This document shows positions 14,801-59,341 of a stretch of 64,000 bases of DNA, piece by piece. This stretch comes from Lineus longissimus. Taxonomy: Eukaryota; Nemertea; Pilidiophora; Heteronemertea; Lineidae. Both the position numbers and the translations under genes were made by a program. The stretch is taken from NCBI RefSeq assembly GCF_910592395.1, contig NC_088310.1, positions 441,501 through 505,500 of the forward strand, given 5' to 3'. Below the pieces are notes generated by a model. That model was given only the letters and a program-made list of their open reading frames with translations, was not told where the DNA came from and did not search any database. The stretch's first letter is position 1; each line of letters starts with the position of its first letter.

Positions 14801-16197
14801 AAAGGCTATAAAGTCTCAGGCTGACTCCGTCGTGTGGCAGCTAATCGCACCTCTGGTAAACGATCTCGCTTACATTTCATGGTTCTCTGATGCTTTCTTT
14901 AATTCAATCGTCTTGCCAATCTTCCTTTACAGAAACATCGCTACTGGCGCCGGTAATATAGCAGCGCGAGTCGGGGGTATACTGGCTCCACAAATTGGAC
15001 TTTTGGTAAGATATTTTGTAACAAGAATGCTCTAAGTACAATTGTGCTTTTTATCACTGAGATGCAGACAATAACAACTAAAGCCGGTCAACTATGACAC
15101 CCACTGGGCTGTGTAACATTACTACTATGACACCCACAGGGCTGTGTAACATTACTACTATGACACCCACAGGGCTGTGTAACATTACTACTACGACACC
15201 CACAGGGCTGTGTAACATTACTACTATGACACCCACAGGGCTGTGTAACATTACTACTATGACACCCACAGGGCTGTGTAACATTACTACTATGACACCC
15301 ACAGGGCTGTGTAACATTACCACTATGACACCCACAGGGCTGTGTAACATTACTACTATGACACCCACAGGGCTGTGTAACATTACTACTACGACACCCA
15401 CAGGGCTGTGTAACATTACTACTATGACACCCACAGGGCTGTGTAACATTACTACTATGACACCCACAGGGCTGTTTAACATTACTACTATGACACCCAC
15501 AGGGCTGTGTAACATTACCACTATGACACCCACAGGGCTGTGTAACATTACTACTATGACATCCTCAGGGCTGTGTAACATTACTACTACGACACCCACA
15601 GGGCTGTGTAACATTACTACTATGACACCCACAGGGCTGTGTAACATTACTACTATGACACCCACAGGGCTGTGTAACATTACTACTATGACATCCTCAG
15701 GGCTGTGTAACATTACTACTATGACACCCACAGGGCTGTGTAACATTACAACTGTGACACCCACAGGGCTGTGTAACATTACTACTATGACACCCACAGG
15801 GCTGTGTAACATTACTACTATGACACCCACTGGGCTGTGTAACATTACTACTACGACACCCACAGGGCTGTGTAACATTACTACTATGACACCCACAGGG
15901 CTGTGTAACATTACTATTTGTGATCACACTATTACAGTCTAGTGACAAGAGCTCAGCCAAGGATCTATCTATAAACATTACATATCATTCCAGGGAGTGT
16001 TTCATCCTTCCTTGCCATACGCGATAATAGGGGCCCAGGCAATCGCCGCCTCCATATTGATGTTCGTGGTGATGCCTGAGACCAAGGGGAGACCTCTACC
16101 GGAGGGGTTGCCACCGAGAAGCTGGGGAAAAGGCTCCAAGACATGTAGATACAAGGACACCAGTAAGGAGGCGCAGATACAAGAAACAAAGTATTGA
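11873..16197 (+). CDS. SLC22-family organic ion transporter (MFS), 8 exons, 513 aa
   Basis: Exons: 11873-12151, 12676-12904, 13133-13328, 13444-13662, 13794-13931, 14277-14480, 14933-15005, 15994-16197. All phases match and the 514 codons fit the usual 500-560 aa. Landmarks in order: MGERSFEDILDLIGHFGPAQ at the N-terminus; TM1 and an extracellular loop with Asn-glycosylation sequons; WDMICGDAY; the MFS loop motif GGQLADIYGRKWTL; PESSRWLIQKGRYEEASKVL; LDLFRTKRYAAQTL; GDIYLNSLIAG; VDILYSTEAYPTLVR (family YTxELYPTxxR); RNIATGAGNIAARVGGILAP; and PETKGRPLPEG at the C-terminus. The family moves organic cations, anions or carnitine-like zwitterions across the plasma membrane; subtype is not assignable. 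The exon-5 donor is GTTCGT, weaker than the others but required by phase. The last intron contains the 33-bp array. Confidence 0.92.
15080..15962. repeat. 33-bp minisatellite expanded inside a dispersed repeat
   Basis: About 25 units of 33 bp with core ACACCCACAGGGCTGTGTAA, in the last SLC22 intron. The length is a multiple of three and the unit lacks stops, so both strands are spuriously open (repeating MTPTGLCNITT on plus). The flanks GCCGGTCAACTATGACACC and GATCACACTATTACAGTCTA match the single-unit copy at 7596-7712. Confidence 0.95.
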
Positions 16198-16682: not shown

Positions 16683-19600
16683 CTAACTCGAGATTAGCTT
16701 GCAGAACTCTGGAAAGAAATATGTATGAAGATCGCGTTTAATAGGTGGACAAAATAGAAGCTGAAACGATTAACTCATATGAAGTACCCCATCCTGAAAT
16801 TCAGGTTTTTGATACTCCTACCTCATGTAAGAAACATCGACAGGCGGAGTATATTCAAAACTACTGGTTATGCCAGGATAGAAGAACCCTCGCGTGTCCT
16901 GGTAGCATTTGCTGTATTCAAACTGAGAACATCAAATGCATGTGCACATCCAAGGAGGCTACCGCGGTGACGTCACATCACGTGATCCCGACCCATATTA
17001 GTGATCGCTATGGCCAATCAGATTCAGTCTACTGACAGCACCAGCACTGAACACATCTCCACGTCTCACTGTCTGGTGCGCTCCTGTACACAAAAACACC
17101 AATAGACATGAAATATTGCAATACCTAGTATGGATTCTTCCTGTGTAAAATAAAATTTACAGAGCAGATTAACTTCCACGAATAAAAAAGACGTTTGGCG
17201 TGGCCAAAGTGCGGAAATAATGTCTCCGCTAAAATACACTACGAAATACACTAGGCAATGCACTACGCAATATACAGTAGAGATGCAGTTGAGTTTGTTA
17301 TTGTTTTGACTTAAAAGCCCGCCCATATCATAATATATTCATGTATTCATTAAGTATGAACTCATTTCTGTCCCATACAACTCTAAGAACAGTCAATTTC
17401 TCCTTGAATCATCACCGAAACCGCGATATCCGCAGGAAGATTTCGTTCTAGTGTCCGAAAATGCATGATCTTACAGGGGCGCTAACTTGACAAATAGAGG
17501 GGATCTATGGGGATCTATGCGAGTTTTAGGTATTACAGGTCTCGAACTTGTAAAATCTGTAAACATGCCTCCAAATCCCATTATGATAATGAAGAGATTG
17601 CCCCATATCTGGGAGACTGTTTTGAAACCATCGCTAATTTTGGAAGATCGGTGCCCGGCTATTTGGTTAAAAAAAACCCCATTTTCCCCCATCAAAACAG
17701 CACTTTTCATTATTCAAATGATAGCTTATTGTCTGAAGACTTATTTCATAGCAGAAAAGTACTAATAACTCTGATTTGATGCGAAAAATCAAACTTTTTT
17801 GATGACTTGATTTTCCCTTGGCCGTGGATCGAGTTTGTTTACAATATGCAGCGCCATCTTGGAAAAGCCGTGACGTCACCGCGGTATCCTCCTTGGTGCA
17901 CATCAGAGGTTTGAAATCCCTCACACTCTAAGATGTTATTTGTGATGCCAACAATCACAAGTACTGGTAGTGTCATCGGAGTGAGGGAAATGCCTCGTAG
18001 GGGCATCCATGTACATGTAATTTACCGCTTCAAATTACCATTGAACTTACCATTATAACTGATCCTCCCGTCCTGGTCCTCGTCAGCCTCCGTTATCATC
18101 GCCTCCACCTCCCGCATGGACAGATTCTGCCCCAGATCCGTCATGTAACTCTTTAACTCTTGCGCAGTGATGTAACCATCATTATCTTTATCAAAGGCTT
18201 TGAAGGCTGCTTGTATCTCCTCCTCTTGCTCCTTAGGCCGCAGCTTCCGCGACATCAGCGAACAGAACTCGTTGAATTCGATTGTGCCGCTCTCTGAAAT
18301 CACAATTCTCATAACTTCATATCACTGATTTGCTAAAGAGACGGGAACCGGCCCCAATCGATTGATGGCCCGAAGGTTCCGTCAACAGCTTGCTGCCACA
18401 GCTAGTAAGATCCGATCTGTCGAGGCAGACCAAGCTTCTTTGCTTGAACCAAACAACCTAACCAAACAACTTGAAGGTCGTTCTTGCTTTCTCATTGGTT
18501 TATGTTGCTTTCTTATCGGTTTAAAAGCGCTTTCTTAGCAAGATCTCCCACTTAGATATCTGCTCATGGTTTTGCAGGATGAGTATTCGGCTGTGTTACC
18601 AAAATGACTTGGAGGCAATACAAGGAAACAGGGCAAGAGGCAGTTTTCGTAAATGCCCCGAAGCGCCAACGCGAACGCCTACCTCGTGGTTCGACCTCAT
18701 AATAACGACGTCGAACAATAATGGGATAGGCGTTCACGTTGGTTTTTCGGGGACTTTGCGAAAACTCCCAATTAATCTTACCATCTTCGTCTATGTCATT
18801 AAGCATATGCACCAGTGCCTCCTCGGACGCCGTGTAGCCATGGGCGGTCAACACGGAGCCTAGCTCTCTGGCCGTGATCTCGCCAACATTCTCAATATCG
18901 AACAGGGAAAAGGCCTCACGAATCTCTGCAAGAGCGACATGAACTATTGTAGAAAGACTTAGCACTCCATGTATTCATTCGAGCAAGATGCTACAGTTGA
19001 ATATCACGTGTTGTACAAGGAGACGATTGGGTGTGGTGGGCATCGTACGCTGGCTCACATCGATAGTTAGATCAATTGCTGCCTGATTAAACTCGGTCTG
19101 GGTACCGGGGTGGTCGTGTTACCGGGGGCCTTGTAATTGTAATTAGAGAGGAAACCATACGGGACCGGCGATTTGTTGGTCTTCATAGCGGGATGGTCGC
19201 GTTACCGAGGCTGTCGCTGACCGGGGTTCTACTGTATATCTTTTCAAGAGACGTGTATCACAAGAATAGGACGTTTATCGGTGAAGCAAGAAGAAGCCAG
19301 TTGTTTTGTTTGCATCTGAGGGGCTGTACTTACCATTCACCTGTTCATCCGTAGGAGGAAGGTCTACCTATAAAAAGCAGAGATCGTCTAAGGATTCGAT
19401 TTCATCGACTGGTATAAAAGATCGAAGCAATTGGATACTGTCATGGCAATAACATAGAGGAAAACGTCAATGCACTGAAGGGCGATCTGCCCGTGACCTA
19501 AAATCATCGTCAGTGTCATAAAGGAACAGCAAAATAAGGTGTATGGTTGTTTCTTCCGTTCCATGACCCACTCATCGCACAGCGATATTGCTCACATATA

Positions 19601-22436: not shown

Positions 22437-25400
22437 ATGGCTGATGACGTGGAGGTGAGTGACAACATTCTTATTCCTTTCCCTTTTAGATATAGGCTTT
22501 TTATGTTCAATGAATTACACAAATTGTCAATAAGCACGTTTATTAAACTAGTAGACTGTCTGGTGAACCTTCCAGGATCATGAAACTACAATGCCTTTCA
22601 CGAAGCGATGGAACATTCTCTTGGGCTTTCCCCCCTCACCGTGACAGGGCTTCCCCTTCATGGAGAACCTCTCATGGAGACCGAGCAAAACTTCTCATAG
22701 CTGCCTACAGAGCAACACTCTATCTTTTTCCCAATCGCCTCCGCAGTTTAGTATATAGTGAAAACAGAACGTTGATTCGTTTCGACAGGAGAGGTCCCCA
22801 CATCCCAAAGCTACACGGCCCACCAATTAGCCGCATCGATCGAGACCGTGTCCTTCCTTGGGGACATCACGCGGCAGGTTTCAGTGGGCTTGGCCTTGAG
22901 TAAGGTACTAGAGCATAGAGTTTCTATTTCAATTACAGTTAAAAGCATTTGATGATATGAAACTTTCGATGCTTTCAAATATTGCTGATAATGCTTGGAT
23001 GTCTTTTGTTAGTGTTATGCTCTCTGTTGCCCAGGAACCAATGGAGAGCGTGGATATTAACTCGTTTGATCTTCAATATAACGGTGTTGAGGTCGTTTAG
23101 TACGTGCCTAATTCAAGTCAATGGTCCTATCACAATGCTATGGCAGTATTTTGACAAGGATCAAGTGGCTAAACCTTCAGTGTTTTCATTTTCTACTGTT
23201 TATTAAAGCTGTCCTCTCTGGCATTACGGTTAGTAGGATTTGAAACGGTTTCGCCAGTCATGCCAGTGCAGCGCTTATCGAGTTTGTGACCCAGTCATTA
23301 CCACCACTGAGTCGCAAATTTGCTGCAACAGGACTAAAACATATCTGTTCTAAATGTGAATTTCAATAGTCGAAATTGCTAACTAACAAAAATGATTTTA
23401 AAATCAATAATGCCTCAACAATAAAATACCGATCACAGTGGGGTGTGATTCCAAACACGGCATTGTAAACCGTATTATGTAGTTATATTTCAAAATATTA
23501 TTTCAAATGATTTGAAGCATGAATATTTAGTATGCATTGTTATGAAGTCGCTACATGTATATGAAATTGGTTCGTCAACTAAAAGTGTCTTCGAGGGGGT
23601 TGGCTGCCCTCAATAGTAGACGTTTTGTAAACATTTCGGAGTGATTACCGTCGGTGGTAGATGCGTAAGATGAAAACCAAGGTAGGTTGAGATGTGAGAT
23701 ACAGGAATATCAAGGACATTTCAGATCAGGTCATTCTCTCTTTCCAATGGAACTATGCAATTCTGAACTTCTTCATTGGCACTATGCAATTCTGTTTCGA
23801 ATATCTGACTCAGGTACTGTGAATGTGTCAAATACTCCTACCACTATCGTAGACCAGCCCAGAGGAACCTTGATAAGAACACATCATTAGTGGGTTGAGA
23901 GTTGTGATATTTTCATGTCGTTGCAGGCGCTGATTGATCAACTTACTGAAGAACAAGTAATCGGTGAGTGGCTCAATGTTGCTTTGCAGTTTTGCCTCTT
24001 CCCCGACAGCCCTGGCTGAGTTTCCTCACCAATTCGGTTCGAATATCGATTCTCAGAAGTATTCTACATGTATTTTGTTGATGAACAATGGGACACCAAG
24101 AACATAAAACATTCCACACTGGTTGTCGCTGGAGGAAAGAAGAAGAAAATGTAAAGTTAGGTTCCACCGAGATTTGAACTCGGATCGCAGGATTCAGAGT
24201 CCTGAGTGCTAACCATTACACCATGGAACCTTCCTGGATGACCAATGTTCTTCGAGGCGGATATACTGGCTGTCACTGGAGGAAAGAAGAAGAAAAAGTA
24301 AAGTTAGGTTCCACCGAGATTTGAACTCGGATCGCAGGATTCAGAGTCCTGAGTGCTAACCATTACACCATGGAACCTTCCTGAATGACCAATGTTCTTC
24401 GAGGCGGATATACTGGCTGTCACTGGAGGAAAGAAGAAGAAAAAGTAAAGTTAGGTTCCACCGAGATTTGAACTCGGATCGCAGGATTCAGAGTCCTGAG
24501 TGCTAACCATTACACCATGGAACCTTCCTGGATGACCAATGTTCTTCGAGGCAGATATACTGGCTGTCACTGGAGGAAAGAAGAAGAAAATGTAAAGTTA
24601 GGTTCCACCGAGATTTGAACTCGGATCGCAGGATTCAGAGTCCTGAGTGCTAACCATTACACCATGGAACCTTCCTGAATGACCAATGTTCTTCAAGGCC
24701 GCTATATATATAAGCTTAATCAAAGGTGTTTTAATTGGGAACAATGACAGCTGGCCTTGGTACACACACTCAACTCACTGCTGCTAAAAGGACTGGATGT
24801 ACACATTACGACTGGCGGCTTTCTTTTGGCTTTATGTTTGCGTAGTTGCCCTTGCTCATTCCTCCCCATCGCACCTTTCACGAGACGGGCAACAGGTTGG
24901 CATGGCTGAAAGATCTGGGGATCCTCTCTCCAGGCATTCTGGTTGTGACTTTGTCCTCATGGGAGCTATGGCTGTGCCTATACAGGGTGTCACAAGGACG
25001 TTCAGTGCATGCTCATATTCTGGTCGCCTCCCTCTTGGTGTCCCCTGGTCTCACCATGCCTGGCGAATCAGTTTCAAACTCTGTATCAACAAATCAATCA
25101 ACAAATCGCATGAACGGACCATTTGATCCGTCTTATGACACTGATAATGAATAATTAATGAAACATATGTATGTTTAAACCCTCAGAAGGATATCGACCA
25201 TGTAAGTGTTTTCATTGTCCGAACTACTAAAATATGAACCACTAATCGGCTGTTCGCTTGACTTTAGGTCTTTATTCGTCTTGTTGTGACTTAGTATTGA
25301 TGTGTTCCGCTCTGCTCACATTATTATGTCATGTTGTTTGTTTTGAGGCATTGATTAATCAATGGCATCAGTGTTGATACATAACGAGGGACCACAAACT

Positions 25401-27372
25401 CTAATGTACTCGTCTACATCTGGTGTAACACGTCTGTACTCCTACTTTCTGTGTCCATTTGAAATAGGCCTACCACCCTGGGTGAGCCAAACATGACCAC
25501 GGGGTGACGGGAACCTATAACAAATCATTTTGACATTTGGTGGTGTCTGATGATAATTTCCACTCTTTCCAAATCATCTGTGGACAAAGTCACAACCAGA
25601 ATGCCGGTGTGACAGTTTCAAATGTCCCAAGATTGAGCCTGTCATGAGGACGAAATGATTCTAATTGTTCGATGGATTCCAAAACCACAACATGACTCAA
25701 GCCCGATTTTGCAGTAGGTGTTTGGAATCCGGACATCGAAGTTCGTCCTCAATGTCCGACCCAAAATCTGAATACTTCGGCGTCCTGTTATCTCAGTCAA
25801 TTTGTTTTCATTTTCGATAGAAATAACATGTTGCACTTTGCCGTAACGTCGATCTCATACTTACACAAGGGCCTACAACACAGACTGGCAACTCTTGGCG
25901 CCTTACATGTATGCTCAATTAAGCCCTACAAACACTCGCGACAAATGTTATCCAAAGACAATGTTTGAGCATTTCATATTTTACAAACGTTAACTTCCTA
26001 TGCCTATACATGGTGTACCAAAAAGGTTTTAAGTCGTGATATTCCGGCGGCATTTGAGTTGTGACTTTGTCCTCCAAAGACTGATTTTGGACAAATGGAA
26101 ATTGTACACAGACAACGTGGAATCGCCCATAGGTTATCATAGTTGTTCATCTTTTGTTCTCATAACAGAAGAAAGTAGATAGGTTACAGCTCTCCTTGGC
26201 GTATGGTTGAAAGGGGAGCACTTTCACCGTCCACAATGAATCTTTTTCGGCGGGATGAAAATCCTTCAGCGTTTTCCTTACAGAAATCCGTGAGGCGTTT
26301 CGCTTGTTCGACAAGGACGGCGATGGGACTGTATCTACACAGGAGTTGGGGACGGTGCTGAAATCACTTGGACAGGCACCAACAGATGATGAGCTAGAGA
26401 CCATGATTAACGAAGTGGACACTGACGGTAAGTGATAGGGCAGCGAGTTGCCCAGTCATCAATCAGCCCCGCAGTTGATGGATGACTGTTCGGCAACAGC
26501 GGCAACCAAAGCGACCGGACATCAACGAAGACGCGTCAGGTAAGATGACCCGTTACGGTTTCGTGCATGGTCAATTACACTATCGGAGCTGTGTGACTTA
26601 GGACTCTACATCTCTCGTCTTCAGGCAATGGTATCATCGAGTTCTCAGAGTTCCTCGCCATGATGGCAAAGAAGATGTTAGGGGGAGAGTCCGCGCTTGA
26701 CATCCGGGAGGCGTTCAAGGTGTTTGATCGGGACGGGCACGGCTACATCACGGTGGCAGAACTCAAACGCGTGATGACCACCCTTGGGGAGAAGATGACG
26801 GAGGAGGAGGTGAATGAGATGATATCAGAGGCAGATGTGGATGGGGATGGCAAGGTCGATTATGAAGGTAAGCACCAAATGAAGCAATGGCCGCCTGGGT
26901 GTCTGATCCGATCTTTCAGATCGCACAATTTGATGTTCTTCAGCTTAAGACATTAAAAGCTGGACACCACACGAGGACTGCGGTTTCGTGGGAAGTTGCG
27001 CCGCCACAGGGCCAAACAAACCACTTGTGCCAACAGACTCAGGTTGCGAAAGTAGGCGTATTCGGGATAGTGCAAGCCATAGCATAACAGTTCTTTATGT
27101 GAGCACTACGTTTGTCGCACAGCTCCTGACTGAGTTTACAGTATATCATTTTCAAGCAAAGTCCTGCTGTGTCCCAGAAGTGTCTCAATTGGTCTCCGTG
27201 ACGTGTTTGAGACGCATGGGGACAGACGTTCGCCTTCACTGCCGCAAAGGTTCTCACTCGGACATAGCCACAACCAACATAACCTGCATGAGATGGTCAC
27301 AATCAACCAGCCAGCATTAAAAATACCATTCTCTCTTATTCAGAGTTTGCGGAAATGATCAAGTCGAAATAG
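22437..27372 (+). CDS. Calmodulin-like four-EF-hand protein B, 5 exons, 156 aa
   Basis: Exons: 22437-22454 (MADDVE), 23927-23963, 26284-26427, 26625-26867, 27344-27372 (stop TAG). The 157 codons join in phase. All four loops are canonical: [48 protein letters not shown]. The LTEEQVIEIREAF start and the linker [14 protein letters not shown] follow the calmodulin/troponin-C plan, and the C-terminus is EFAEMIKSK. Expected role: cytoplasmic Ca2+ sensor. It has the same 144- and 243-base exons as gene A on the opposite strand, so they are duplicated paralogues. Intron 2 (23964-26283) hosts four tRNA-Gln genes on the opposite strand. Minus-strand tRNA transcription would run against this gene. Confidence 0.93.
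24159..24230 (-). tRNA. tRNA-Gln (anticodon CUG), copy 1
   Basis: 72 nt. Reading the minus strand: acceptor GGTTCCA, D arm GTGTAATGGTTAGCAC, anticodon arm CAGGACTCTGAATCCTG with CTG at positions 34-36, T arm with box B GAGTTCAAATC, acceptor TGGAACC plus discriminator T. Every stem pairs. A TTTT run follows as a Pol III terminator. There is no intron and no encoded CCA, as expected in eukaryotes. Confidence 0.96.
24306..24377 (-). tRNA. tRNA-Gln (anticodon CUG), copy 2
   Basis: Identical in the tRNA body to copy 1 and offset by exactly 147 bp. A TTTTT terminator run follows on the minus strand. Confidence 0.96.
24453..24524 (-). tRNA. tRNA-Gln (anticodon CUG), copy 3
   Basis: Identical tRNA body, again offset by 147 bp, with a TTTTT terminator run. 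Confidence 0.96.
24600..24671 (-). tRNA. tRNA-Gln (anticodon CUG), copy 4
   Basis: Identical tRNA body, offset by 147 bp, with a TTTT terminator run. As the highest-coordinate copy it is the first in minus-strand order. Confidence 0.96.
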
Positions 27373-34500: not shown

Positions 34501-37500
34501 CCAGTGTCAGTCCAGTCAGCAGAACAAATACAACTGATGACAGGATTGATCACCAGAATAGGACAATCTACCCGATAGAAGACTAACAAATGACCAAAGG
34601 AAAAGTACGTAAGTTACCTGAAAGTCCACCAATGCACTGTTCAGGTATCCAGTCTGGTAAAACATTAACCCTCTCAGCTGAAGAGCAGCAATGTGTTGAG
34701 GGTTGAGGGTCAAGGAATGATTGAAGTTCTCCATGGCTAACCTAAAGTTACCGATGCCACTGTAAAAATAAAGAAATATTTGAATGCCAAGACACAACTA
34801 TTGATATTTGAAAAGGCATTTCTTGACAAGTGCAGAGCTAAATTATCCAGGCACATTAATGGTACCTAGTTCATCCAGTGGATGCTCTTGAAACCTGTCA
34901 ACAGCAAACCTCCTAGCTGTGTCTGCCCTTAGCTCTTTCTCACAATACCTTGAGGTACACGTCACCAAACATGCGAGAATTTATCTCCTATAATTTGTTA
35001 GCACCAACCTGTATGAGTGAGCCATACTTGTGAAGGCATCGAGATGATCCGGCTTCATTTTGATAACATCTTTAAAGACTGCTATAGCATTCTGAAAGGA
35101 AGAGTCTATAGTTATCATTAATCATGGCATTTTCAAGCAGACTTTGGGCTTCGCCTTTCCTGAGGCCAGCACATGGTTAGCAAACTACTAGAACCCATTC
35201 ATCAGATATGTGTGCAGCTGAGCAATTAAGTCGAGACCTTTTCACTGTGAACAATATTGAATGTTCATGACAGACAACAAATGCCGTCAACCATGAAAGC
35301 AGCATCAGCATATTGGGAAATGAGACCTCACATGATGAAAAGGAAGCCGAAAGGATACTGCCTCCAATAAACAATAGAGTAATATTGCTCACCCTGAGCT
35401 TCCCCTTGTAATACAGTGTTATGCCAAGGTAGTAGAGAATACTGAGCTTGTGGGAGTCATTCATGTCCAACGCTTCTCTGAAGTTCATTTCAGCAGAGGT
35501 CAGATCCTCGCTCGATAACGCCATCACACCACGTAAGAAATATAATTTTGCTGTTGGTCGTGTTTTTAAAGCTTGGGAGATGTCTTCGAGAGCTTCTTTA
35601 GTTAGGCCGGCCAAAGCCAAAACCTGCAATGGAGAAAACGAAAACTTTATATTCAGGACACATCGGCTCATTTTGTCTCCAAGTAGATGAGTGATCCCGT
35701 ATCTGTTCCACATTCACATCAGTGACAAAGTAGGGCCAGAACTCTTACAGAGCAACAACTACTCTCCTGAGGCCCCCTTAGCAAAAGTGGCTTTCTGTGA
35801 AATAAAACTATGAGGCCACAAGGCCACATAACCCTAGCTTCAATGAGTCTTCACTGGCGACCTGTGGGTCTCCATGTTGTTGGCCACATAACCCTAGCTT
35901 CAATGAGTCTTCACTGGCGACCTGTGGGTCTCCATGTTGTTGGCCACATAACCCTAGCTTCAATGAGTCTTCACTGGCGACCTGTGGGTCTCCATGTTGT
36001 TGGCCACATAACCCTAGCTTCAATGAGTCTTCACTGGCGACCTGTGGGTCTCCATGTTGTTGGCCACATAACCCTAGCTTCAATGAGTCTTCACTGGCGA
36101 CCTGTGGGTCTCCATGTTGTTATTCCACTGTGTTGAAATGCAATACTTGGCTTCTTACCTCAGCTCTTCTCTCATAACTCTCGGGAATACTTCGATCAAG
36201 ATCAATAGCTTTCGTGAAATCATTATAGGCAGCATTGAAATTCGCCTGAAAGACAAGAGACAAAACGAAGTGGTCAATTTTTCCATTGAAAACATCAAAG
36301 CCGAGCATGTCAAAACAACTTAGATGGACATGGCACTCTCAACTACTGGCACTATCAGGATGGCTGCCCTCTCTGTTGAAGCTGAAGTTTATTCAAAATA
36401 TCACCTGACGCCATGAGCCACACAGTAACCAGTCCTGGCCAAATGGACATCAGTAAATCACACTCACCTGGAGTGACTTTCTTGCATACGCAGAACCACG
36501 TCCATGATAGGCAGGTATCATATCAGGATGATCCTTAAACGGAAAATTGGATACTTCAAGGTAAAGTGACAAGGAATTAAAAAATGAGTCTGTCTGAAGT
36601 CAAGTCATTTTACAAGATTGACCAAAAAATAAAAGCTCCTAATAAATTTGGTGAAACAAGTTAGCCAGTGACAAACATCCTGATCCAGTTTACAAGCAGC
36701 TGACAGCAGCCAAAGTACATACCAATCTCACATGATTGTGCATCCATCCTTCACCGCCGAGAACTCTCCTCTGATATTCACCACCGATAAGTCGGCCAAA
36801 GTAATTACTGTTTCAAACTTAGTTGAGATAGCAATTACTTACCTCGATTTGAGATAGCAATTACTTACCTCGATTAGTTTAGTAAAGTGAGTTATGCCTT
36901 CATCAAGATTATCAGTGTTTATCAGTACTAAACCATAAGCTGAAAAGGAAGATATTTTACTTTACACCAATAATGGCACCAAATGGTTCTCAAATAACAT
37001 TGTCTGCTGCATGTTGAAAATTACAGTGAAATTTTGCCATTTCACTGAAGAGATGCTAATTGATACCGCCACACAAAAAGGGATAAGGTGGCTAAAGGGG
37101 GCTAAAGGTGGCTAAAGGGGGCTAAAGGGTTTCTATATTCTCTAACCACATTTCTTACAACAGAAGACTTTATATATTCGATATTAAAGACAGGTTTCTG
37201 TAAAGCTTACCTATCCTCTTATCTATCTTAATGTTGCCTGTGCCGAGTGGCACCAGTTTCTGTAAAGCTTACCTATCCTCTTATCTATCTTAATGTTCCC
37301 AGTGCCGAGTGGCACCAGTTTCTGTAAAGCTTACCTATCCTCTTATCTATCTTAATGTTCCCTGTGCCGAGTGGCACCAGTTTCTGTAAAGCTTACCTAT
37401 CCTCTTATCTATCTTAATGTTCCCAGTGCCGAGTGGCACCAGTTTCTGTAAAGCTTACCTATCCTCTTATCTATCTTAATGTTCCCAGTGCCGAGTGGCA

Positions 37501-45980: not shown

Positions 45981-46244
45981 ATAAAAAAAACACTTACATT
46001 AGAATAGTTGTTAGTGTAAGAGGTATCTATCGATAAAATCAAGATCACTTTCAGGTTGATATTTCTTGAGATGAAAACGAAAGAACATATTAGTGAAGGC
46101 ACATTAGCAAAACCAAAATATTGATCTTTCAGAAATTAGTTAGGTATCAAACTTTCGTTACTCTGGACATCGAAGTGTTTGAAGTAGTCGTGATCGCGTA
46201 ATAGACGAACGCCTGCTTACCTAATACTTGAAGCACAGTGACAT

Positions 46245-46784
46245 GTGCATTCATGCATGCATGCCATGGTGACCAAATTGAGGATCACCGATTGTTGCTG
46301 TCTGGGACATGTCCTATCCTCCCATGCAGCCATTGCAGCCCCCTACATCCTCTATAACGGTACCGGGACTGTTTACAAGGAGACAAGGAGACACATATTG
46401 ATGGATACCATCGGTATGTCGCCTCGAGAAGCCGGTTTCAATGACCACTCGTACTCTGGAAAGAGGCTGAGATTGCTCTGGGACTCACTGGTCGCCACGG
46501 GCCCGGCTATAAAACACCGGCGCCCCGACATGCTCGTCTTCGATGAGAAGGAAAAGGAGGTCCTAATCATCGAGATAGCTGTCAGCTCCGACAGACACGT
46601 CCTAGCACGTGCGGAGGAGAAACGATCGAAGTACCAGACGCTCGCAAGAGACCTTGCCCGAATCAACCCCGGTTGGAGGACCACAGTAGTCCCCATCGTA
46701 GTTGGGACCTTGGGCTCCGTATGTTCTATACGGATGGAAGCTGCGAAGCTAGGTAAACTAACACGGAGGAAACGCTTGATTTAG
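46245..46784 (+). CDS. Retrotransposon-derived restriction-like endonuclease domain (5'-truncated ORF)
   Basis: 179 codons. The central segment RRPDMLVFDEKEKEVLIIEI followed by AVSSDRHVLARAEEKRSKY fits the PD-(D/E)xK endonuclease found at the C-terminus of several non-LTR retrotransposon polyproteins (PD...hhDhAhP.D.nh...E..K..KY), and VVPIVVGTLGSV is the usual closing strand. No reverse transcriptase precedes it, so the copy is 5'-truncated and the ATG is not a meaningful start. Confidence 0.65.
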   Translation: MHSCMHAMVTKLRITDCCCLGHVLSSHAAIAAPYILYNGTGTVYKETRRHILMDTIGMSPREAGFNDHSYSGKRLRLLWDSLVATGPAIKHRRPDMLVFDEKEKEVLIIEIAVSSDRHVLARAEEKRSKYQTLARDLARINPGWRTTVVPIVVGTLGSVCSIRMEAAKLGKLTRRKRLI

Positions 46785-47935: not shown

Positions 47936-48610
47936 CATCAACCGAGTAGACTATCTGTTCCATCAACTGAGTAGACTATCTGTTCCATCAACCGAGTAGA
48001 CTATCTGTTCCATCAACCGAGTAGACTATCTGTTCCATCAACCGAGTAGACTATCTGTTCCATCAACCGAGTAGACTATCTGTTCCATCAACCGAGTAGA
48101 CTATCTGTTCCATCAACCGAGTAGACTATCTGTTCCATCAACCGAGTAGACTATCTGTTCCATCAACCGAGTAGACTATCTGTTCCATCAACCGAGTAGA
48201 CTATCTGTTCCATCAACCGAGTAGACTATCTGTTCCATCAACCGAGTAGACTATCTGTTCCATCAACCGAGTAGACTATCTGTTCCATCAACCGAGTAGA
48301 CTATCTGTTCCATCAACCGAGTAGACTATCTGTTCCATCAACCGAGTAGACTATCTGTTCCATCAACCGAGTAGACTATCTGTTCCATCAACCGAGTAGA
48401 CTATCTGTTCCATCAACCGAGTAGACTATCTGTTCCATCAACCGAGTAGACTATCTGTTCCATCAACCGAGTAGACTATCTGTTCCATCAACCGAGTAGA
48501 CTATCTGTTCCATCAACCGAGTAGACTATCTGTTCCATCAACCGAGTAGACTATCTGTTCCATCAACCGAGTAGACTATCTGTTCCATCAACCGAGTAGA
48601 CTATCTGTTC
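47936..48610. repeat. 25-bp minisatellite, exactly 27 copies
   Basis: The unit CATCAACCGAGTAGACTATC plus TGTTC repeats 27 times (675 bp) with essentially one substitution, in the second copy (CTGAG). It lies about 390 bp beyond the stop codon of the 7TM-pseudokinase gene. Confidence 0.98.
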
Positions 48611-48999
48611 CATTAGAGATTTAACTATGAGGTAGGAAGAACGGAGGGGTCGTTTTGATTTGGCACAAGAAAATACAAAGCTGAGACAAACGGTTAAAAA
48701 TGCGTCGGAAGATTTCCTGAAGTCAAGAAGGTCCATTCTACAATGCCCCCAAATTAACATAACAATAATAGTGCCCTTGAAACTACATATATTCCTAATG
48801 TGATTGATTCTCCTAAAGTTTTCAAGAACAAAAGGTGGCACTTATATACATCGTGTCCTCAACGTGTCCCACAACAAAATCTTGCACTATAAACTGCGTC
48901 CTGAACCTAAATGGATCCGATAGCAGAAGGTTGGGCTGATGCAACTGTGTCCTTCGTATGCCAACAGACGGTGTCATAGTGAGTGCCACTTGTAACTGC

Positions 49000-51900
49000 T
49001 CAAACGTGGCCGACGGCAAAAGGTGGCGCTGAAGTGAGGGCGTATTGCAACTCCTCCGCGATGTCCTCTGCGGTGGGTGGCTGTTCCATGAACCAACATA
49101 CTCGCATCATAGCGAACATCTGCAACGAAAGGAGGAGGGAAACAAATTTAATTATCTCTCATGGAATAAACGTCTCAGTTACAGGGATTTTGCAGTGCCA
49201 CTCTTTCTCCATACACCGTATTCCCTTCTTTTCACTAATGTGACATAAGTTTTGATGCCGCCGAATACCATTAGGCACCACGGGTGGCGCTAAACCGGCC
49301 ACTGGATGAATGAGTCTGCACGTGACAGACTAGTTTTGATTTTTCGTCAAGACCTCAACCTCGCTGATGCTAATTTCAACTCACCAAGTTCCCGATGACT
49401 CCGATCTTTCCCGAGCGGAACATCGTCTCCATGATCGCCTCCGACTTGGACTCGTCGCCATTGATGAAAGAATCAAAGTCCAACAAATCAAACACGTTGG
49501 AGAGATCCTTGCAGTAGCAGATTTGATGGCTGCCAATGCCGTAGTTCACGTGATTAGTCATGTGAGCAACCTTGGTTAATCTCTCTTGGAACTCATCTCC
49601 ATATATACTTGAGTTCGGACGGCTCCAGTGAGCCATGGAACTACCATTGTATATACGAGATGTTTGGCTGACAACGTCTGCTCGTGATGACAACCCGCGG
49701 CTTTGCAGGCTGACATCTCGCCCACGAGATGTATCACGTGATGTACTTCTCTGTGGCCTTTGGAAAGCGGTGGATTTGAAGCTGACCGGAGACGGGACAG
49801 GCGTCTCGTTCAAATCTGTTTGTTCTAAGTCACACACAACTAAGTCGTCTTCAAGATTATTCGGTTTTTGTATTCCTAATTCCTTGAAGCTTTTCGATGG
49901 CTGGATTCTTTGGCTTGTACGTGGTTTCACAACAGTGATGATATTGTTTTTTGGTAGAACAGATTCCTGAATGCCACTTGAAGATGGGGTGGTTGACATC
50001 GTCGATGAGACGACGACAGATTTCGCAGACGACGAACTTGATTTCGTATGACCAGTCTCTCTGCTACCGCTTGGTGGCATTGCCTGTTCAGAGTCCCATA
50101 ATATAAGCACATCATTATTCCCACCTATCTGGGCGAGACTAGTTTTGTTCTGAGCAGACGATCCTTTTTTCTGATGAGATTTTCTTGGCGGGATGTCCGG
50201 CTTTGCCAACATGATTACACCGTCACCACACGTGTCCAATGATATACCAATCGACTGATAGATGGCGTCGTCGTCGTTAAACCTCGCATCCCCAAGTCTT
50301 GACGACTGAGAAACGAAATTTGATTCCCCAACTGCGCCATTGTTGTGATAAGAAGGGTTAGGCGCAGCCTTTACTAATTCGAATGTTTCGAATGAAACAG
50401 TGTCCTGTTTTGTTGGCTTTGACTTTGGAATGACCTTCAAAGGCATCGTCTGCTTCAGAAGGTATTTGTTGTTGTCAAAATATCGTGGCAAGATTTTATG
50501 ATTGTCGTCTGTCTTTGGTCTCATCTCCAGATTTGCCTCTCCAGAATCAGTCTCACTCTTCTCACTGTCATTCTTAGAGGAACCCGCGCTCGGAATATCA
50601 ATATCATCGCCTAGAATATATTCCTCTGTAACAGTCTCGTAATTTCCCGTCAGCGGCCGCTTACGAGTGATTCTCCCTGTGGCACTGTCGTCATAGTAAC
50701 TTGATTCAATCCCACTGTCCTCACTCAACAGGTGCTCGACATTCGGCTGAGCTATCTTTCCATCAGATGTTGGTGAATCACTCCCTGCGTTTATCAGCGC
50801 GATAGAAGAGTTCGTACTCTCAAGCGAAGAACTGTATTCACTCGCGTCATCCTTTTTGAAAATGTTATTCACTAAATCGGGACACGGAACCGACACATTA
50901 GATTTGCTTGGTTCCATCGCGGGCTCCGGGGTCGCTATGCTATCAACATCCGGGGCAGTAGACGGTCTGCTGCCGGCAGTTGATGGTCTACTTCCACCGT
51001 CACTATCAGACCATCTCTGACTTCCCCTATCCCCCGAGGCTGCCGGCTGACTTCTCCGTCTTTGAGACCCATTCGACCCATTCCAGTTTATTGGTTTGTT
51101 CGCTTTCTGTTTCGCGTACGCCGCCGTCGGTCCATTCGCAAACTTTATGGTGTGAACTTTGTTCTTTTGAAACCGAATCTTTTGCGGGAGCAAGCGATCC
51201 CTTAAACTTCGCCTCAAACCGCTGTTTCTGTCTTTCATTCCCTTAGTGAATGCAGCGTTCTTTTGCTTAGAAACACTGACAGGGTCAATTTTCTCGGGCG
51301 CTGTCCGGAGCTTCCCACCCCACGCCATCCTGACACCGGCGCTGGACGGTTTCTCAAGTTCTTGTTCCGATAGGACCGGCTCGCCCGTATCCACTGAAAT
51401 CACTCGTGCTGCGTCAGGTAGTGGCGGCTCTGGCGTACAAGGATGAGCGTCACACCCGTCAATGTTCACCTGCATTGTGGAGACAGTTGTGAACTGGTAA
51501 GCACCGTCATTGACGTTGTCTTCGGCGAATGGACTTCGGTCCTCATCCGAGTCGCCCGACTCGTCCTCGTTGTAGTGGGCCATTCTGCCCTCGGCGGGAC
51601 AACGATCCGTGTGACCAACACCATCACTCCCTCTGCTCCACCTATCATAGAGACTAGACTGACTGTTACTCCTGCTACTGCTCGAGTCCTCAAAACTCCC
51701 AAGACGGCGCTCCACAGCCTCGACGCGATCGTAGTGGGCCAAGCGACTCTCACAGCCGTCGGAGCGAGAACTACTCCTATCGGAAGACCACGCTCGGCCA
51801 GATCTGACACTTGATTGGTTATTACTGTCGGCAGAACTGGATCGATCTGACTTCATAGTTTTACTATGCCGCACGTATTCTAGACGACTTTCACAACCTT

Positions 51901-54900
51901 GGCTCCTGACACTGTTCGAATCCTCGCCCAAGGATAACGATTTCGCACTCAAATGATCAGATCGGTTACTTTGGCTGCTACTACGAACATATTCTAAACG
52001 ACTCTCGCAGCCATGACTGCGCACGTTCTCTCCCGCCAAAGACATCTTCTCGTCTGGCGCGCCTGTCAACTCTATCGGTACGCTTGCGCCAAGCGGCGGT
52101 TCCTCCTCGTCGTATGGCACAACATCGTAGTCAATCTCTCCGTCGATATCGACTTCAAGATTGACATTAGTCTGAAGTCTACAACTATCACTTAAAGGCG
52201 TCGACTTTGCCTCAGGGAAATCTACCCGCATACTCCGTGACGGTCGTTTTGAATCGTCCTCAAAATCCGAAACATTTGGCGAATATTCCAGCACATGCGA
52301 ATCTCCTCCATCCGGTTTCAGCGGCGGCATCTCTACCCTTAACTTCTTGTCCTCCACTGGCGATACTTTCTTATCATAAAGTTCAACCGCTGACATCACC
52401 CTTGGTGAAAATCGATTGTCCACACGGTTAACTGTACTGTCCCATGTTTCTTCTGGTACATGCTCTTCTTTCTCTTCCTTGATACTGTGCCTAGAATACG
52501 CACCAATCGACCGATCCCTTCGTGGCTTCGGCCCGAAATCTCTATAGTCTAACTTGAGCGGGGCGAACTTCGACCCTAAACCAGTGATACTGGTAGCTTC
52601 ACGAGACAGATTCAACTCATTCTCAAATGCTTCCTGTTTATCAGCTTCAAGGCCTAAATGTTTCTGGAGATTCTTACTCCTCCTAATCCTCTCATCAGAT
52701 GAGAAATAGTCCTCGTTCATGTCGCCTAAGATCGCATTCTTCTCATCGAAAATGTCTTGGCTTTTTTCTAAAGGCATTTTGACCTTTAACGGGTTTTTTC
52801 CCGTCTCGCCTAATGCTTTTGCTTTTAAGGAGGCCGTACTCCCTTGGTAGTTAGGAGACACAGAGTTCGTTATAGAGACCCGTGATGCTGTCACAGTATC
52901 TCGCTTCCCCGGCCGCATCCTGAAGTAATACAGCGACATGACCATCTCCAGTAGCACCAAGGCGAAAGACCTTATGTCCGGCGCGAAGAGGTTCTGATCG
53001 ACATTGGCCAGCTGGGAGAGTGAGAAGACTTCGGAGACCTCTTCCGCGGGTGCGTTCCTGCGAGGCTTGATCTTCACCTTGGCGGGAAAGACGTCTTTGG
53101 ATTCCTCAAAGTCAGCGATCACGCCCGTCATAATCATGTTCTGGAAAAAGACAGGAGATGTACAAGGCCGCGATTAAATAGAGTTGACTTTTTCACGTGT
53201 TCACGTTTGATGCGTGAGGTTTCATTCCCTGATGACTATGGAAAGTCATGCAGTGCGGGCCTGTCTACGCCTAGGGTGTTAAAGCCTGGTTGTGATTAGG
53301 CGTCATTGGGTTGTTTTTGATGGCAAGTATTTGTAATTCTACCTCTATCTTTTACTTCGTTCTGAATAACTTGTGACCCAGCGATGGAAAATAATTCCCC
53401 TTCTGCGTGAGATTTCTCATTTCCTTTCTATAGTACATATGTTGGGCTTGCCCCAGGGCCAATGTAAAGTTAACGACCGCAGTCAAGCAGGCAGCATTAA
53501 GACCTTATTACATCAGTTTGTAAAAGTGAATTATAGTTTTGACAAAACCCCCATTTATAAATGACTACATTAATCTTATTTTAGTTCTTATTCGGCTTAA
53601 TTTCGTTGATACCCTAAGCACACAGATCAGAAACCAAGCCAAATGCATATTCGGACTAATTTTATAAAAAATATTTGCCTTCTGGATGTAAAGGGTCTAT
53701 TAAAACTAGATTAGTATAACACTTTGGGTCTAATGGAAGACATTCTTTGAGAAGTTAAGCCTCAGTGGAGATTTAACCCACACTCACTTGAAAACCTAAG
53801 ACCAACTCAACACATGCCAGGCTTTAGGTATTGCAAGCAAATACATGACAGCAGACCATCTTATCTCCGTCAAAGGAATTCGAGCAACTAAACACGGCCT
53901 CCACTGTCACCAATCGTCATGAGTTGATACGTAGGGCCCAGTTGATCATAACGAGTTACCTCACGCTAAATTTGACTTGGCGTTACTAGTATAAACCGTC
54001 AAGTTACTGTTCACGTCAATATAGGACTATCCTTATCTAACCACTTGGCCTTGTTAGTGCTTCTTTTCACCTTGCTGCCATCCCTTGCCTTGTGCCCACA
54101 ACCCCCCTCCTGTGTCAAAATGTCACACAAGAAGATTGAACCAAGGCCTTACTCAAAACACCTCACATTTCTTTTGAAAATACGACACTTGTGATGTTTG
54201 CGAATGTCAAGCATGTCAAGAGAGCTCAAACTACATATTCTGAAGATGATAATATCCTCTACATATCAAATTAACATGAACTCCGGTATGCCATTAAAAG
54301 CAACCCCTTTCAAATTATCAATGGGCCTTCTCTGAAGAGCTGTACATTGGTCTCGATCTGCTCCTGTCGTTGAGACTCTGGCCTATTCTGCTCAGTCGAG
54401 AAAAAGGGCGGACACACTTGAGATGTATGAGGTGACAAGTTCAAAACGATGTCTAAACTTGTCTTAAAGGGATCTTATCCATTGAACAGCAGCAGTAACG
54501 AGCATCCCCCCATTATTCCCAAATGGGTCAGGGACATATATGTCACCAATTCTGACTGTCCAGGCAGAAAACAACCACCTGTGACAATCATCAAAGTTTG
54601 GAACAAAACGTATATGTATTCTGATTTAGCCCTTGTGTTTTCTAGTTGTATAATAATATGCTTCGTACCTGAAAGGACCCTGTTATGTAGATACAGTGGG
54701 CTGAGAGCTTGTTGTGCAGGATACCGAGGGACTTGAGATGTGACAACCCATTGGCCACGTCCAAGGTGATACTATGAAGGCTGCCTTCGGTCAGCTGTTG
54801 GATATCGTCGATCAGGAGGCGGCGGAGACTGCCCAGCTCGCAATGGGCGCGGCAGATGATGCTGGAAAGGAACACCAAAAGCAAACGATAACATCAGAAT

Positions 54901-57900
54901 CAAGTGGAATATCAATATCATTTAGCAAATGAAGCATGCTGTGCTGTACCAGAGTGTATTTCATATCGTTCTGGTCAAAGGTACTCAGTTGAACATACAT
55001 CTCAAAGATGGGAAAAGAATCGATCAGAATATTCAAAAGTCTCATCCCTAAACCGTTCCCCATACAACAGCTATCACAGACACCCCACAGAACAGCGTCC
55101 ACTGTAACTTGTGACCCCCATATACCCCCTGTATCCACTGTCCACCCCATTGCAGCAATCTTTTCATCTCTGCAATACAAAACCTTTCCTCTGCCCTGTC
55201 CTCACAATGACGGCACAACAAACAAGACCAGTTACGCATCAAGTTCTTTAGAAAGTCTTCCACGGACTCTGACACAAGCTGCCACCCAGCCAACCTAAAA
55301 TGCGGCCAAACAGACGTATCAAACACCAGATCTCTAATCAACGTTCCTGAAAACCACAATTTGTGAAGTTTCAGCTCAATTTGTCCACCTTTTTAGAAAC
55401 GTCTACAAAAGGGTGGTGCCCTTTTCATGCCTGGGTAGTGATGAGGCGTACGGGGAGGAGGTTGCGGTGACGGAGTCGAAAGTGTGTTTACTGGTCCGGC
55501 GCTTTGGCGACAGGTATCCTCGGAGACGACGGAACGGCGTATAGAGGAGGAGACACTAATATATGACGAAGGCGACAGTGCGGGAGGACAAATGTCCAGA
55601 TGCATTGATTGAAAGGGTTTTTGAAGGAGGAGCAAGTTTTGAAACTGCTTTTTCCTTTTTCGTCATTGGTTGTTAGCACAATTGTGATGAAGCAACGTAT
55701 AGTGGTTGAATCTATCCCCATTAGTGCTGATGTTGATCTTACAAGTTGAGGGTTTTAGTCAGACCAACAGCCCCCGTGGACTTCGCAGTACAAATCTGAC
55801 CCATTTGAGTGCGCATGCAGGACCAGCGTAATGACTGTACATCGTGTCCTTCAACGAAATCATAAATTCACCATCATTCCTCAACACAATGCCACCTATT
55901 CTGGTCCCTTGAAAAGGACGTCACATTCCTGTCCCTTTGTATCTGTATTTGGTGCGATATCTTGTGTCCCCGCCGTGTCTCCGGCTGTGCACCCAAGAGC
56001 AGGCATGATTACACACAAAGACTAAGACCAGATCTCTCCGCCTCTGAGCGCTTCCATGAAATATCGACCAGACGTTCTGTGTCCCTGTCATTAGTGTTCA
56101 AGTATTCTAACTTCCTAACGTGAACAAATCGCCCACACTTGACTACCTCTGTCCTCTAAATACTTCCTATTTTGGGAGGGGTTCATTGTGATGCTGAGGT
56201 GTTTACAATGTGGTTATGAGAAGGGCAAACCATACATCGTCAAAGAATCTGGTTTTCAAAACGAATTGTCATGTGAACTCCGTTCTGTACAGAAGACAGG
56301 ACGAGTAAGCGTGAAGCACGAGATGTGCAGAAGAAGATGTGCCTTTGTATTGAACATAAAACATCTGAACGGAACTGATTCAATGCTCTGTTTGAAGTAA
56401 TCTTCTGTGGCCGTGATCTGGTGGCCTTGATACTGAGGAGGGTCTAGAAGTGACAGGTGCAGACGGGGAATACGAATTTACCATCCAGCATCAAGAAAAA
56501 AGGATGTTGAAATCATATAACACCATGCTTTCCAATGACATTTCAAGTCAACTCACCGACTAGATTTACCAAACGGCATTCCTGTGATGAGACTGAGCAT
56601 CTCATCATGGCGATTCTCCTTGGACGCCCAGAGGTATTGCGCCACATTGGTGTGGCTCTCCTTGGAGAGTTTGGCAGCTGTCTTGATCTCACTGGCCCAT
56701 TTCTGTTTCTGGTGAAGAGGGAAGACTTTCATGACACCGTCGAGGTGACGACGGTCGTGGTACCAGTAGGTGAGGAGATTGAGAATGCCAGACTGAAAGA
56801 TCAAGTGAGTGCTATCATCAATAAACTTCTTCACCAAAACCAGTACCAGACCTGTATGAGCTTGTGTCTCTATTTTAGCACTTTCGTGCCAATAAACGAT
56901 TCAAAGTAGATGGTAGCCGACGACCCTTCATTCAGTGCTGTAATGAGATCTAGTACAATCTATCTGTTCATCTATTTTAAGTCAAGTGCTACTTTCGCTG
57001 TATAATGCAACCTTCTGGAAGATTTTGCTTTTCTATACAAGTGTAGTTCTCTGCTCGAAATGTAGGCCTACGGTGGCAACGCCAATCTACAGCAAGACTT
57101 CATCAGCATTATGACTTGGGTAGGACTTGCAATGATCAGGTTATCTACATGACTTGAAGATGCCCACGATGTTGCCATATGCATAGCCGAGGTCGATCTC
57201 ATTACTGCACTAGGCATATCATACCTACCCTCTTGTTCCAACTGGAGAGAATCTTAGCATCCTGGAAGCATTCAGGAATCTCAAAGCCTTCCTGGAAGAC
57301 GACATCCAACGCCTTATTAGTAAGACAGTTCTTATTCGGCGTGTTCTTCAGATAGATGATGAGAGGTAGCAAGGCATGGACGGCTATCCCTACAGCCAGG
57401 ATGTATCCGAGGGTCCACTTGAGAGTTATCCGGTCCATGGAAGAGCCGCCAGTAAAGGCGACAACCACGCCGCACATGATGATAATCCACCGCATCACGT
57501 CAACAGTAGCCAACCTCACTGTCCGTTTCATTAGAGATTTCCGTTTCTGTGTTCTGTATTGCGAGATTGTAATGTCTGAGAACTCCTTCTCCAGCTTCTG
57601 TATCTTGAGGAAGGAGGCAATGATAATGCCAAAACTGGCAATGAGGGTTAAACAGATTAGAAGGATGAGGATGAGGGAGTACACCCAGCTGTTTTGGCCT
57701 GGTAGCCTGATTGGGATACAGTCGTAGAAGTAGGCAGAGTCCGTGTCGATGTCTGGGGCGATCAGAGGCAGGAAGCCGAAGAAAAGGCCCAGGAACCATA
57801 CAACACCTGTCACTGACGCTGTTATGATCGTACACATCTTTATGTTTCCTTTCAGGCGCTTGGAGCCTCTGTCTATGATGAACTCCACCTGCCAGAGGTA

Positions 57901-58215
57901 GAGAACGACTATGGTGACTAGTAAGGTCCCGGACGAGATTAGGGTCGAGAACATGAGGAGGTAGCCGCCGCCCTTACAAATCCCGTCCTCGGGAAGATCT
58001 TGGTCGAGGAGAAGCAGTAGCAGCGCCAGCCCCGTGATCACCTCTGAAAGATCACCGAAGATGTTCGCCAGTTTTAGCGGCATGACAAGGATCTTGTGTT
58101 CCCTGAAACTCCTCCATAACGCCAGCAAGATATTCCCAATGATGCCAAGAGCTACCAGAGTCGTTAACAGGTAGCTGGCTATCTCTTGGCTATGTTCACC
58201 GCTGGGGAAACTCAT
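49000..58215 (-). CDS. Seven-transmembrane receptor-pseudokinase fusion, 5 exons, 1,763 aa
   Basis: Exons in transcript order: 58215-57229, 56792-56557, 54861-54669, 53140-49385, 49119-49000 (stop TGA); every junction keeps phase. Residues 1-329 form a rhodopsin-like 7TM: TM1 with GN (27-28), TM2 LANIFGD (49-55), Cys80 and Cys166 as the likely TM3-loop disulfide, TM4 Trp140, TM7 P284-Y288; no DRY. Residues 330-540 form a kinase N-lobe and part of the C-lobe: VMK351, alphaC Glu364, hinge and GSLRRLL, then HNK (457-459) in place of HRD, ADFE in place of DFG, and DIRSFALVLLEM as helix F. About 1,150 Ser/Arg/Asp-rich residues follow before helix G and FAMMRVCWFMEQPPTAEDIA complete the C-lobe. Expected at the plasma membrane, with the pseudokinase as a cytoplasmic scaffold. 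The fold is tyrosine-kinase-like. An in-frame TAG lies eight codons before the ATG, but extra 5' exons remain possible. Confidence 0.85.
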
Positions 58216-59341
58216 GGTTAGAGCTAGCCCCTTATAATCCTAATAAATCACTTTTCCCTGTCAGTTTCATGGTGTAGAAAGAGACTTTCTAGTCGGCAGA
58301 GAAATTAGTCGTTGCGTCTCTATCAGCCATTGTGCTCTCGGAATACTTGCGTCAAATTGATATTCTGTTCCCACGAATCTGCAAAGATAAATGCGGAGAG
58401 CAACTTTGAGTTATCGTTTATATGAAATAACCGTGATAAAGAATTATTCATGGCAAAGTGTGCTCTGACACTGGATATGCTGTCAGAAAATAGGTCAGTA
58501 CTATCTCTTCAGCAAGGAAATGCCAACGTTGACAATTTGCTGAATCTGTAAGGAGGGACATTGCGTTAGGAACTGTTGACAGCACTCATCCCTTCTCAGG
58601 TTCTTTTGTTCATCTAGAGACGTGGAAGATCCAACGGTGTCAACGAATCCTTCATTTCAAGTCCACGGAATGTTCTCACAAAGTGATCGGGTCGAGTGCT
58701 CGATCATTGCTCTCTGCCCAGAAGGAGATTATTCACCATTCAAGTGCGGTACCTCTTTATATCTATTGTAAATTAAAACGTTGCCATATTGTTCTTAATC
58801 CTCTGTGAAAATACTAGAACACTCCAAGAAACACGTTGGACAATTCTCACCAAAGTTCTGTTTTAATTGAAATAGCAAGGATTTCTGTTTTGGGTATGCA
58901 GTGACCCGACCATCGTGAAGATAGGAAAGGGAAAGGAAAGCACTCTTGGAAACAAGGTTGGGGTCAGAAAAGCACCAATATGCAGCAAGTGCGAGTATCA
59001 TTAGGCCTACAACTAGCCCGGAGAAGAGGAGGGTTCTTTAAGCTCAGTGGGAGAGGGATGGCGTTGTGGAATGGTCTAAGATTCAAGTTCCAGCTCAACT
59101 TTGGGGCTGATTTTTGGTTACATTTGCCTCAAAACACAGATTGTTTCTCGTTGGCCTATATGCATACGCTACGGACGTATAACTGACTGAAGTTAATACT
59201 TGAAGATCGGGAAATGGCCATTCATCTGTCATTGAGCTAATGGAGCAGCACGTGAAGGCTAACTTGCCAAGCAAACTTCTCTCATATCCTAAGCAGTGTT
59301 CTCCGCTGCCCATTTGGTAAGGTGTTAAAACCTAAGCTTAC
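58216..59341. other. Upstream region of the 7TM-pseudokinase gene
   Basis: It should contain the promoter/5' UTR. One weak candidate minus-strand exon at about 58944-58851 (SAFLSLSYLHDGRVTAYPKQ, donor GTGAGA) does not join neighbouring candidates in phase. Confidence 0.4.

Follow-up and report, generated by a model that had tools for sequence, protein, structure and literature searches.

Does a single gene of the nemertean Lineus longissimus place a seven-transmembrane (7TM) receptor and a kinase-like domain on one chain, and if so, is its output likely to be catalytic? The question is raised by a stretch of 64,000 nucleotides from contig NC_088310.1 of assembly GCF_910592395.1 (positions 441,501 to 505,500; the whole stretch is called the window below, and all coordinates are given within it). 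Five phase-matched exons had been predicted there to join the two domains.

The gene model itself holds. On the minus strand, from 58215 to 49000, five exons and four introns give an unbroken frame of 1763 codons that ends with a TGA stop codon at 49002-49000. All four introns are of the GT..AG kind, with phases 0, 2, 0 and 0 and lengths of 436, 1695, 1528 and 265 bases, respectively. Coordinates and phases of the five exons agree with the original prediction. Exon 1 (57229..58215, minus strand) is a 987-base open frame that includes the start codon, the 7TM domain (approximately residues 11-291) and the first 38 residues assigned to the cytosol (292-329). Exon 2 (56557..56792, minus) encodes the kinase N-lobe with K351 and E364 (residues 330-408), and exon 3 (54669..54861, minus) encodes the part from the hinge to the catalytic loop, with HNK replacing HRD (residues 408-472). 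Exon 4 (49385..53140, minus; 1252 codons in frame) covers residues 473-1724: DFE in place of DFG, a helix-F-like segment DIRSFALVLLEM, and a stretch of about 1,100 residues in which S, D, E and R abound. Exon 5 (49000..49119, minus) adds the last 39 residues and the TGA. Given the stop-codon frequency of the window, an open run as long as exon 1 has a chance of about 1e-8 per position, and one as long as exon 4 about 5e-30.

Splice sites were scored with simple consensus weights on the minus strand of the 10.1-kb region 48500-58600. The donors of introns 1-4 rank 5, 3, 4 and 2 among 614 GTs by this simple scoring, and the acceptors rank 22, 6, 2 and 1 among 711 AGs, many acceptor scores being tied. 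The top-ranked donor (53787) lies inside intron 3 and is unused in the model. A further coding exon upstream of exon 1 is unlikely, because the exon 1 ATG sits only 24 bases past an in-frame stop.

A tblastn search of the 64-kb window for a second copy, run with the complete protein at E up to 1, returned only its own five exons, the match of exon 1 extending slightly into intron 1. The window holds many tandem repeats. A 25-base repeat (47936-48613, 27 copies, 99% matches) starts about 390 bases past the stop codon of the gene, and a 33-base repeat (15091-15916, 25 copies) has long open frames on both strands. Four tandem tRNA-Gln genes (anticodon ctg; 24118-24706, minus strand) lie in a 147-base repeat with 97% matches. 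Other coding stretches include calmodulin-like EF-hand exons on opposite strands (18025-18321 and 26597-26953), an exon of an SLC22-type organic ion transporter (12616-12939; the best solved match is SLC22A6, E 3.5e-10), a GNAT acetyltransferase exon (9221-9661, minus strand) and TPR-like exons whose Pfam scores are under the cut-offs (34519-35713, minus strand). A 180-codon open frame at 46242-46781 looks by eye like a part of a LINE-type element, and Pfam has nothing for it at E up to 0.01. Transporter, EF-hand, TPR-like and GNAT exons among many tandem repeats are in keeping with an animal genome; genes of sponges and choanoflagellates are usually more compact, which makes a bilaterian the likelier source.

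Topology shows the 7TM part clearly, and HMM matching shows it weakly. By hydropathy, seven hydrophobic regions pass the threshold used, all of them in exon 1 and none in the rest of the 1763-residue protein. Inner loops 1-3 contain 16 K+R in 50 residues vs 3 in 54 residues of the N-terminus and outer loops; the loop boundaries in this count were drawn manually, and it excludes the C-terminal piece 291-329 (5 K+R, 5 D+E). The predicted topology is therefore one of seven transmembrane helices with the N-terminus outside, and this charge distribution would put the rest of the protein, from the kinase part onward, in the cytosol. The Pfam profile 7tm_1 covers residues 132-255 at 19.9 bits (E 5.4e-4), short of its 30.5-bit cut-off. 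No chain in PDB matches the 7TM part in sequence at E up to 1. A single-sequence structural model of the exon has seven long helices at the positions given by hydropathy, at low confidence (pLDDT 52, pTM 0.35). With this poor model, a PDB fold search at E up to 10 returned 68 matches, the best with E 0.98 and none at 0.001. Among the best 50 of the 68, TM-scores reach at most 0.28 by query and 0.32 by target, and many of the matches are GPCRs while others are channels or ABC transporters; we did not count them. Two other Pfam matches of exon 1 (E 0.09 and 0.16) are taken as chance, and an NCBIfam match to RegB is far below its cut-off.

The residues named earlier for this domain are all as described: N28, D55 in LANIFGD, C80, W140, C166, and P284-x3-Y288. 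The first five fit class A landmarks. The class A motifs DRY, CWxP and NPxxY are not conserved: V104-L105-Y106 stand at DRY spacing from C80, TM6 has no proline, and the TM7 motif reads LPLIIY.

Statistically, the kinase part is real. Pfam family PF07714 matches residues 330-1763 with 31.4 bits, above its cut-off of 23.1, whereas PF00069 stays below its own. Smaller matching pieces score from 27.9 to 36.2 bits: exon 3 alone 27.9 bits (E 1.8e-6), exons 2 and 3 together 35.1 bits (E 1.1e-8), exons 3 and 4 together 28.5 bits. Of the seven pieces tried, exon 2 had no Pfam family, either by itself or preceded by the final part of exon 1, and no kinase match came from the first part of exon 4 by itself or from helix F joined to the C-terminal tail. 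Most of the score thus comes from exon 3, with about 7 bits from exon 2 and little from exon 4. NCBIfam matches of the kinase part to MAD6 kinase (E 7.8e-4) and PsbU are far below the cut-offs, and the PsbU match on exon 4 (0.11) is taken as chance.

A sequence search of PDB with the kinase part found 105 distinct chains at E up to 1. LRRK2 takes the top 18 places (E 3e-6 to 1.2e-5); further down the best 60 of the 105 come MLKL, RTKC8, PTK6, MET and LIMK1. The alignment with LRRK2 extends through the helix-F-like DIRSFALVLLEM in exon 4. For a query of exon 3 extended by the 17 residues after it, the best PDB match is the MLKL pseudokinase (E 1.7e-4), and LRRK2 is the next one. The domain had been described as tyrosine-kinase-like; its best matches are LRRK2 and MLKL, the tyrosine kinases PTK6 and MET being weaker ones. 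LRRK, MLKL, LIMK and the activin receptors are members of the TKL group.

The N-lobe deserves separate consideration. As a query of 108 residues it has just two matches in PDB at E up to 10, the activin receptors 2A (0.061) and 2B (0.1). Each alignment has two single-residue gaps, and VMKVFPLHQKQKWASE falls on AVKIFPLQDKQSWQSE of 2B. The 2B alignment puts K351 at the VAIK Lys and E364 at the helix-C Glu. K351 in the role of the VAIK Lys does not sit easily with where the Pfam match begins and ends (residues 27-138 in exons 2 and 3 vs profile positions 24-135). Both residues are present as originally predicted, and the assignment of K351 to the VAIK position is likely rather than certain. From where the Pfam and PTK6 matches start, K366 is a second candidate; the activin alignment favours K351. 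With the whole kinase domain as the query, no TGF-beta type II receptor is found among the best 60 of 105 matches (E up to 1) or among the best 60 of 175 (E up to 10). A single-sequence model of exon 2 (pLDDT 53, helices only) is too poor for use.

Kinase matches stop at or before helix F, and the long region that follows is of a different composition: S, P, E, K, Q, R, D, G and N make up 64% of residues 556-1690 vs 42.5% of residues 1-555. It has no Pfam match inside and is probably disordered. Three close copies of a GCESRL(E/A)(Y/H) stretch lie at residues 849, 887 and 934, with a looser one near 990 (51557..52018, minus strand). When nine short-motif patterns were counted on residues 561-1690, one DSGxxS (DSGIES; shuffled mean 0.12) and one NPxY (NPSY; shuffled mean 0.09) stood out, single motifs being weak evidence. 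The other seven patterns are absent, at or below the shuffled level, or only slightly above it.

The original prediction took residues 1700-1763 for a part of the kinase fold, for which Pfam and PDB searches give no support. The tail RVCWFMEQPPTAEDIAEEL, encoded in exon 5, looks like kinase helix I only by eye: in Pfam it has no family, either alone or joined to helix F, and in PDB it has one irrelevant RecA match (E 0.85). Its addition to the query does not raise the LRRK2 score (29.5 vs 30.4 bits). The long region may be an insert within the kinase C-lobe, as the earlier reading of the last exon implies, or a simple tail after the kinase domain.

With moderate confidence we regard the locus as one gene for a "GPCR-bigram", i.e., a divergent rhodopsin-like 7TM receptor with a cytosolic TKL-type pseudokinase and a long serine-rich region, which would act as a non-catalytic receptor. 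The exon chain, the frame, the topology, the kinase homology and the loss of catalytic residues are read from the DNA itself; the way of working is proposed. Binding of a ligand to the 7TM domain would move the pseudokinase or change its conformation; without phosphorylating anything, the pseudokinase might then bind or allosterically control a partner such as a kinase or an adaptor. Other kinases acting on the serine-rich region could create docking or turnover sites there. The output of the predicted receptor would thus be of an allosteric or scaffold type.

The best surviving alternative accepts the same fusion and lets it signal mainly through G proteins, the pseudokinase and the serine-rich region regulating only desensitisation or trafficking. 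It is consistent with the conservation of N28, D55, the C80-C166 pair and W140, with a basic inner loop 3 (8 K+R of 26 residues), and with the presence of DSGIES and NPSY in the long region. However, DRY, CWxP and NPxxY are not kept. Since the DRY position is V104-L105-Y106, TM6 lacks a proline and NPxxY is LPLIIY, G-protein coupling is probably weak or absent, and we judge this alternative rather unlikely.

A less probable alternative, which we consider unlikely, is that two adjacent genes have been wrongly joined through in-frame splice signals: a small 7TM receptor made of exon 1 (with other 3' exons or with intron retention) and a downstream kinase-like gene. This concerns the join of exons 1 and 2, which creates the fusion and is the least supported of the junctions, being backed by splice signals and an open frame. 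Exon 1 alone encodes a complete 7TM domain, and no homology crosses the join, as judged by Pfam searches on exon 2 with and without the end of exon 1. At rank 22 of 711, the acceptor of intron 1 is moderate and weaker than the other three. Further acceptors in phase lie downstream of exon 1: among the 20 in-phase joins listed as opening at least 55 codons, 56432 alone (score 4.57, opening 58 codons) outscores 56792 (score 2.98, opening 79 codons). On the other hand, the donor GTAGGT (57223..57228, minus strand, phase 0) is a good one, ranking 5 of 614, and the frame of exon 1 continues for only 8 codons past it before a stop. Exon 2 is in a compatible phase, and no ATG lies in frame between its acceptor and the stop ahead of it; a gene for the kinase alone would therefore have to use a different first exon or to start at M350, inside the domain. 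Finally, intron 1 is just 436 bases long and contains neither AATAAA nor ATTAAA, but this absence says little, because both are equally absent from the 1.1 kb that follow the stop codon of the gene. A single gene encoding the 7TM domain and the pseudokinase is the best reading of the locus, and a partly supported one.

The translated sequence confirms the earlier reading of HNK for HRD (residues 457-459) and of DFE for DFG (482-484). The alignments with MLKL and LRRK2 set the register, by which the position of the HRD Asp is occupied by Lys459. By the usual criterion, the loss of at least one of the VAIK Lys, HRD Asp and DFG Asp, the domain would be classed as a pseudokinase. Because the HRD Asp is lost, phosphotransfer by the domain is unlikely; binding of a nucleotide is possible, because K351, E364 and D482, the Asp of DFG, are kept. 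That the domain is an active atypical kinase is very improbable: K351, E364 and D482 are present and some atypical kinases do function with displaced catalytic residues, but Lys459 stands at the HRD Asp position, Cys464 is by spacing at the position of the catalytic-loop Asn, and a glycine-rich loop is not seen by eye.

How does such a receptor compare with known systems? In parts, it resembles proteins of other architectures. MLKL and other TKL pseudokinases are similar to its kinase part from the hinge to the catalytic loop (CELGSLRRLL vs CELGTLRELL) and also have a degraded HRD; MLKL is not a 7TM receptor. About 50 N-lobe residues align with those of the activin (TGF-beta family) type II receptors ACVR2A and ACVR2B with two single-residue gaps. 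Those are single-pass receptors; their E-values are only 0.061 and 0.1, and none of them is among the best 60 of the 105 whole-domain matches. A scan of IMG/VR for the 7TM exon turned up 29 pattern matches, none of them a relative.

Fusions of GPCRs with kinases are on record from oomycetes, amoebozoans, choanoflagellates and sponges (PMC12716839), so the earlier account of known cases, which spoke of unicellular eukaryotes and a few early animal lineages, was about right. The taxon table of this 2025 eLife survey includes Branchiostoma floridae and Nematostella, and its Discussion has "GPCR TKL/Ks" in a list of the families uncovered in metazoans; we take this to mean the sponge GPCR-TKs. Its authors state that, as far as they know, the function of no GPCR-TK, TKL or K has yet been characterised. 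An earlier article presents GPCR-TKLs as restricted to oomycetes and amoebozoans and metazoan GPCR-bigrams as rare or nonexistent (PMC5784254, in the part available), and another considers possible modes of work of such chains, including those with an inactive catalytic domain (PMC6033456, likewise in part). The amphioxus GPCR survey PMC2246102 contains no word that starts with "kinase", and PMC8662651 none that starts with "GPCR" or "7TM". The titles and abstract openings of those matching papers that were listed, with preprints and most subscription papers outside the coverage, yielded no report of a 7TM-kinase gene beyond the four groups named above.

The nearest systems share the general plan and differ in particulars. 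The GPCR-TKL/K proteins of acanthoecids carry a 7TM domain and a C-terminal TKL-type kinase on one chain, as the Lineus gene does; in the available part of PMC12716839 they are reported from acanthoecids only, with neither kinase inactivation nor a 1,100-residue region described, and the likeness is one of description. The GPCR-TKs of choanoflagellates and sponges in the same survey also combine a 7TM domain with a kinase and reach early-branching animals. Their kinase is described as a tyrosine kinase, whereas the Lineus domain matches LRRK2 and MLKL best and tyrosine kinases more weakly. The GPCR-TKL bigrams of oomycetes and amoebozoans have the same order of domains (PMC5784254 and PMC6033456, as far as covered); in Phytophthora infestans, 8 of the 17 have a DEP domain after the kinase, whereas the Lineus protein has no DEP match in Pfam.

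Against this background we tentatively suggest that a bilaterian 7TM receptor, fused to a dead TKL/activin-receptor-II-like kinase domain and a giant serine-rich region, may serve as a ligand-gated pseudokinase scaffold, which either arose anew or was kept from a holozoan GPCR-kinase ancestor. Such a receptor type would be undescribed in animals beyond sponges in the portions of the literature covered here. If this is true, and a fusion with a dead kinase exists in another animal, then 7TM-kinase chains reach beyond the base of the animal tree; such chains could also work without catalysis, and the Lineus gene offers a place to test that.
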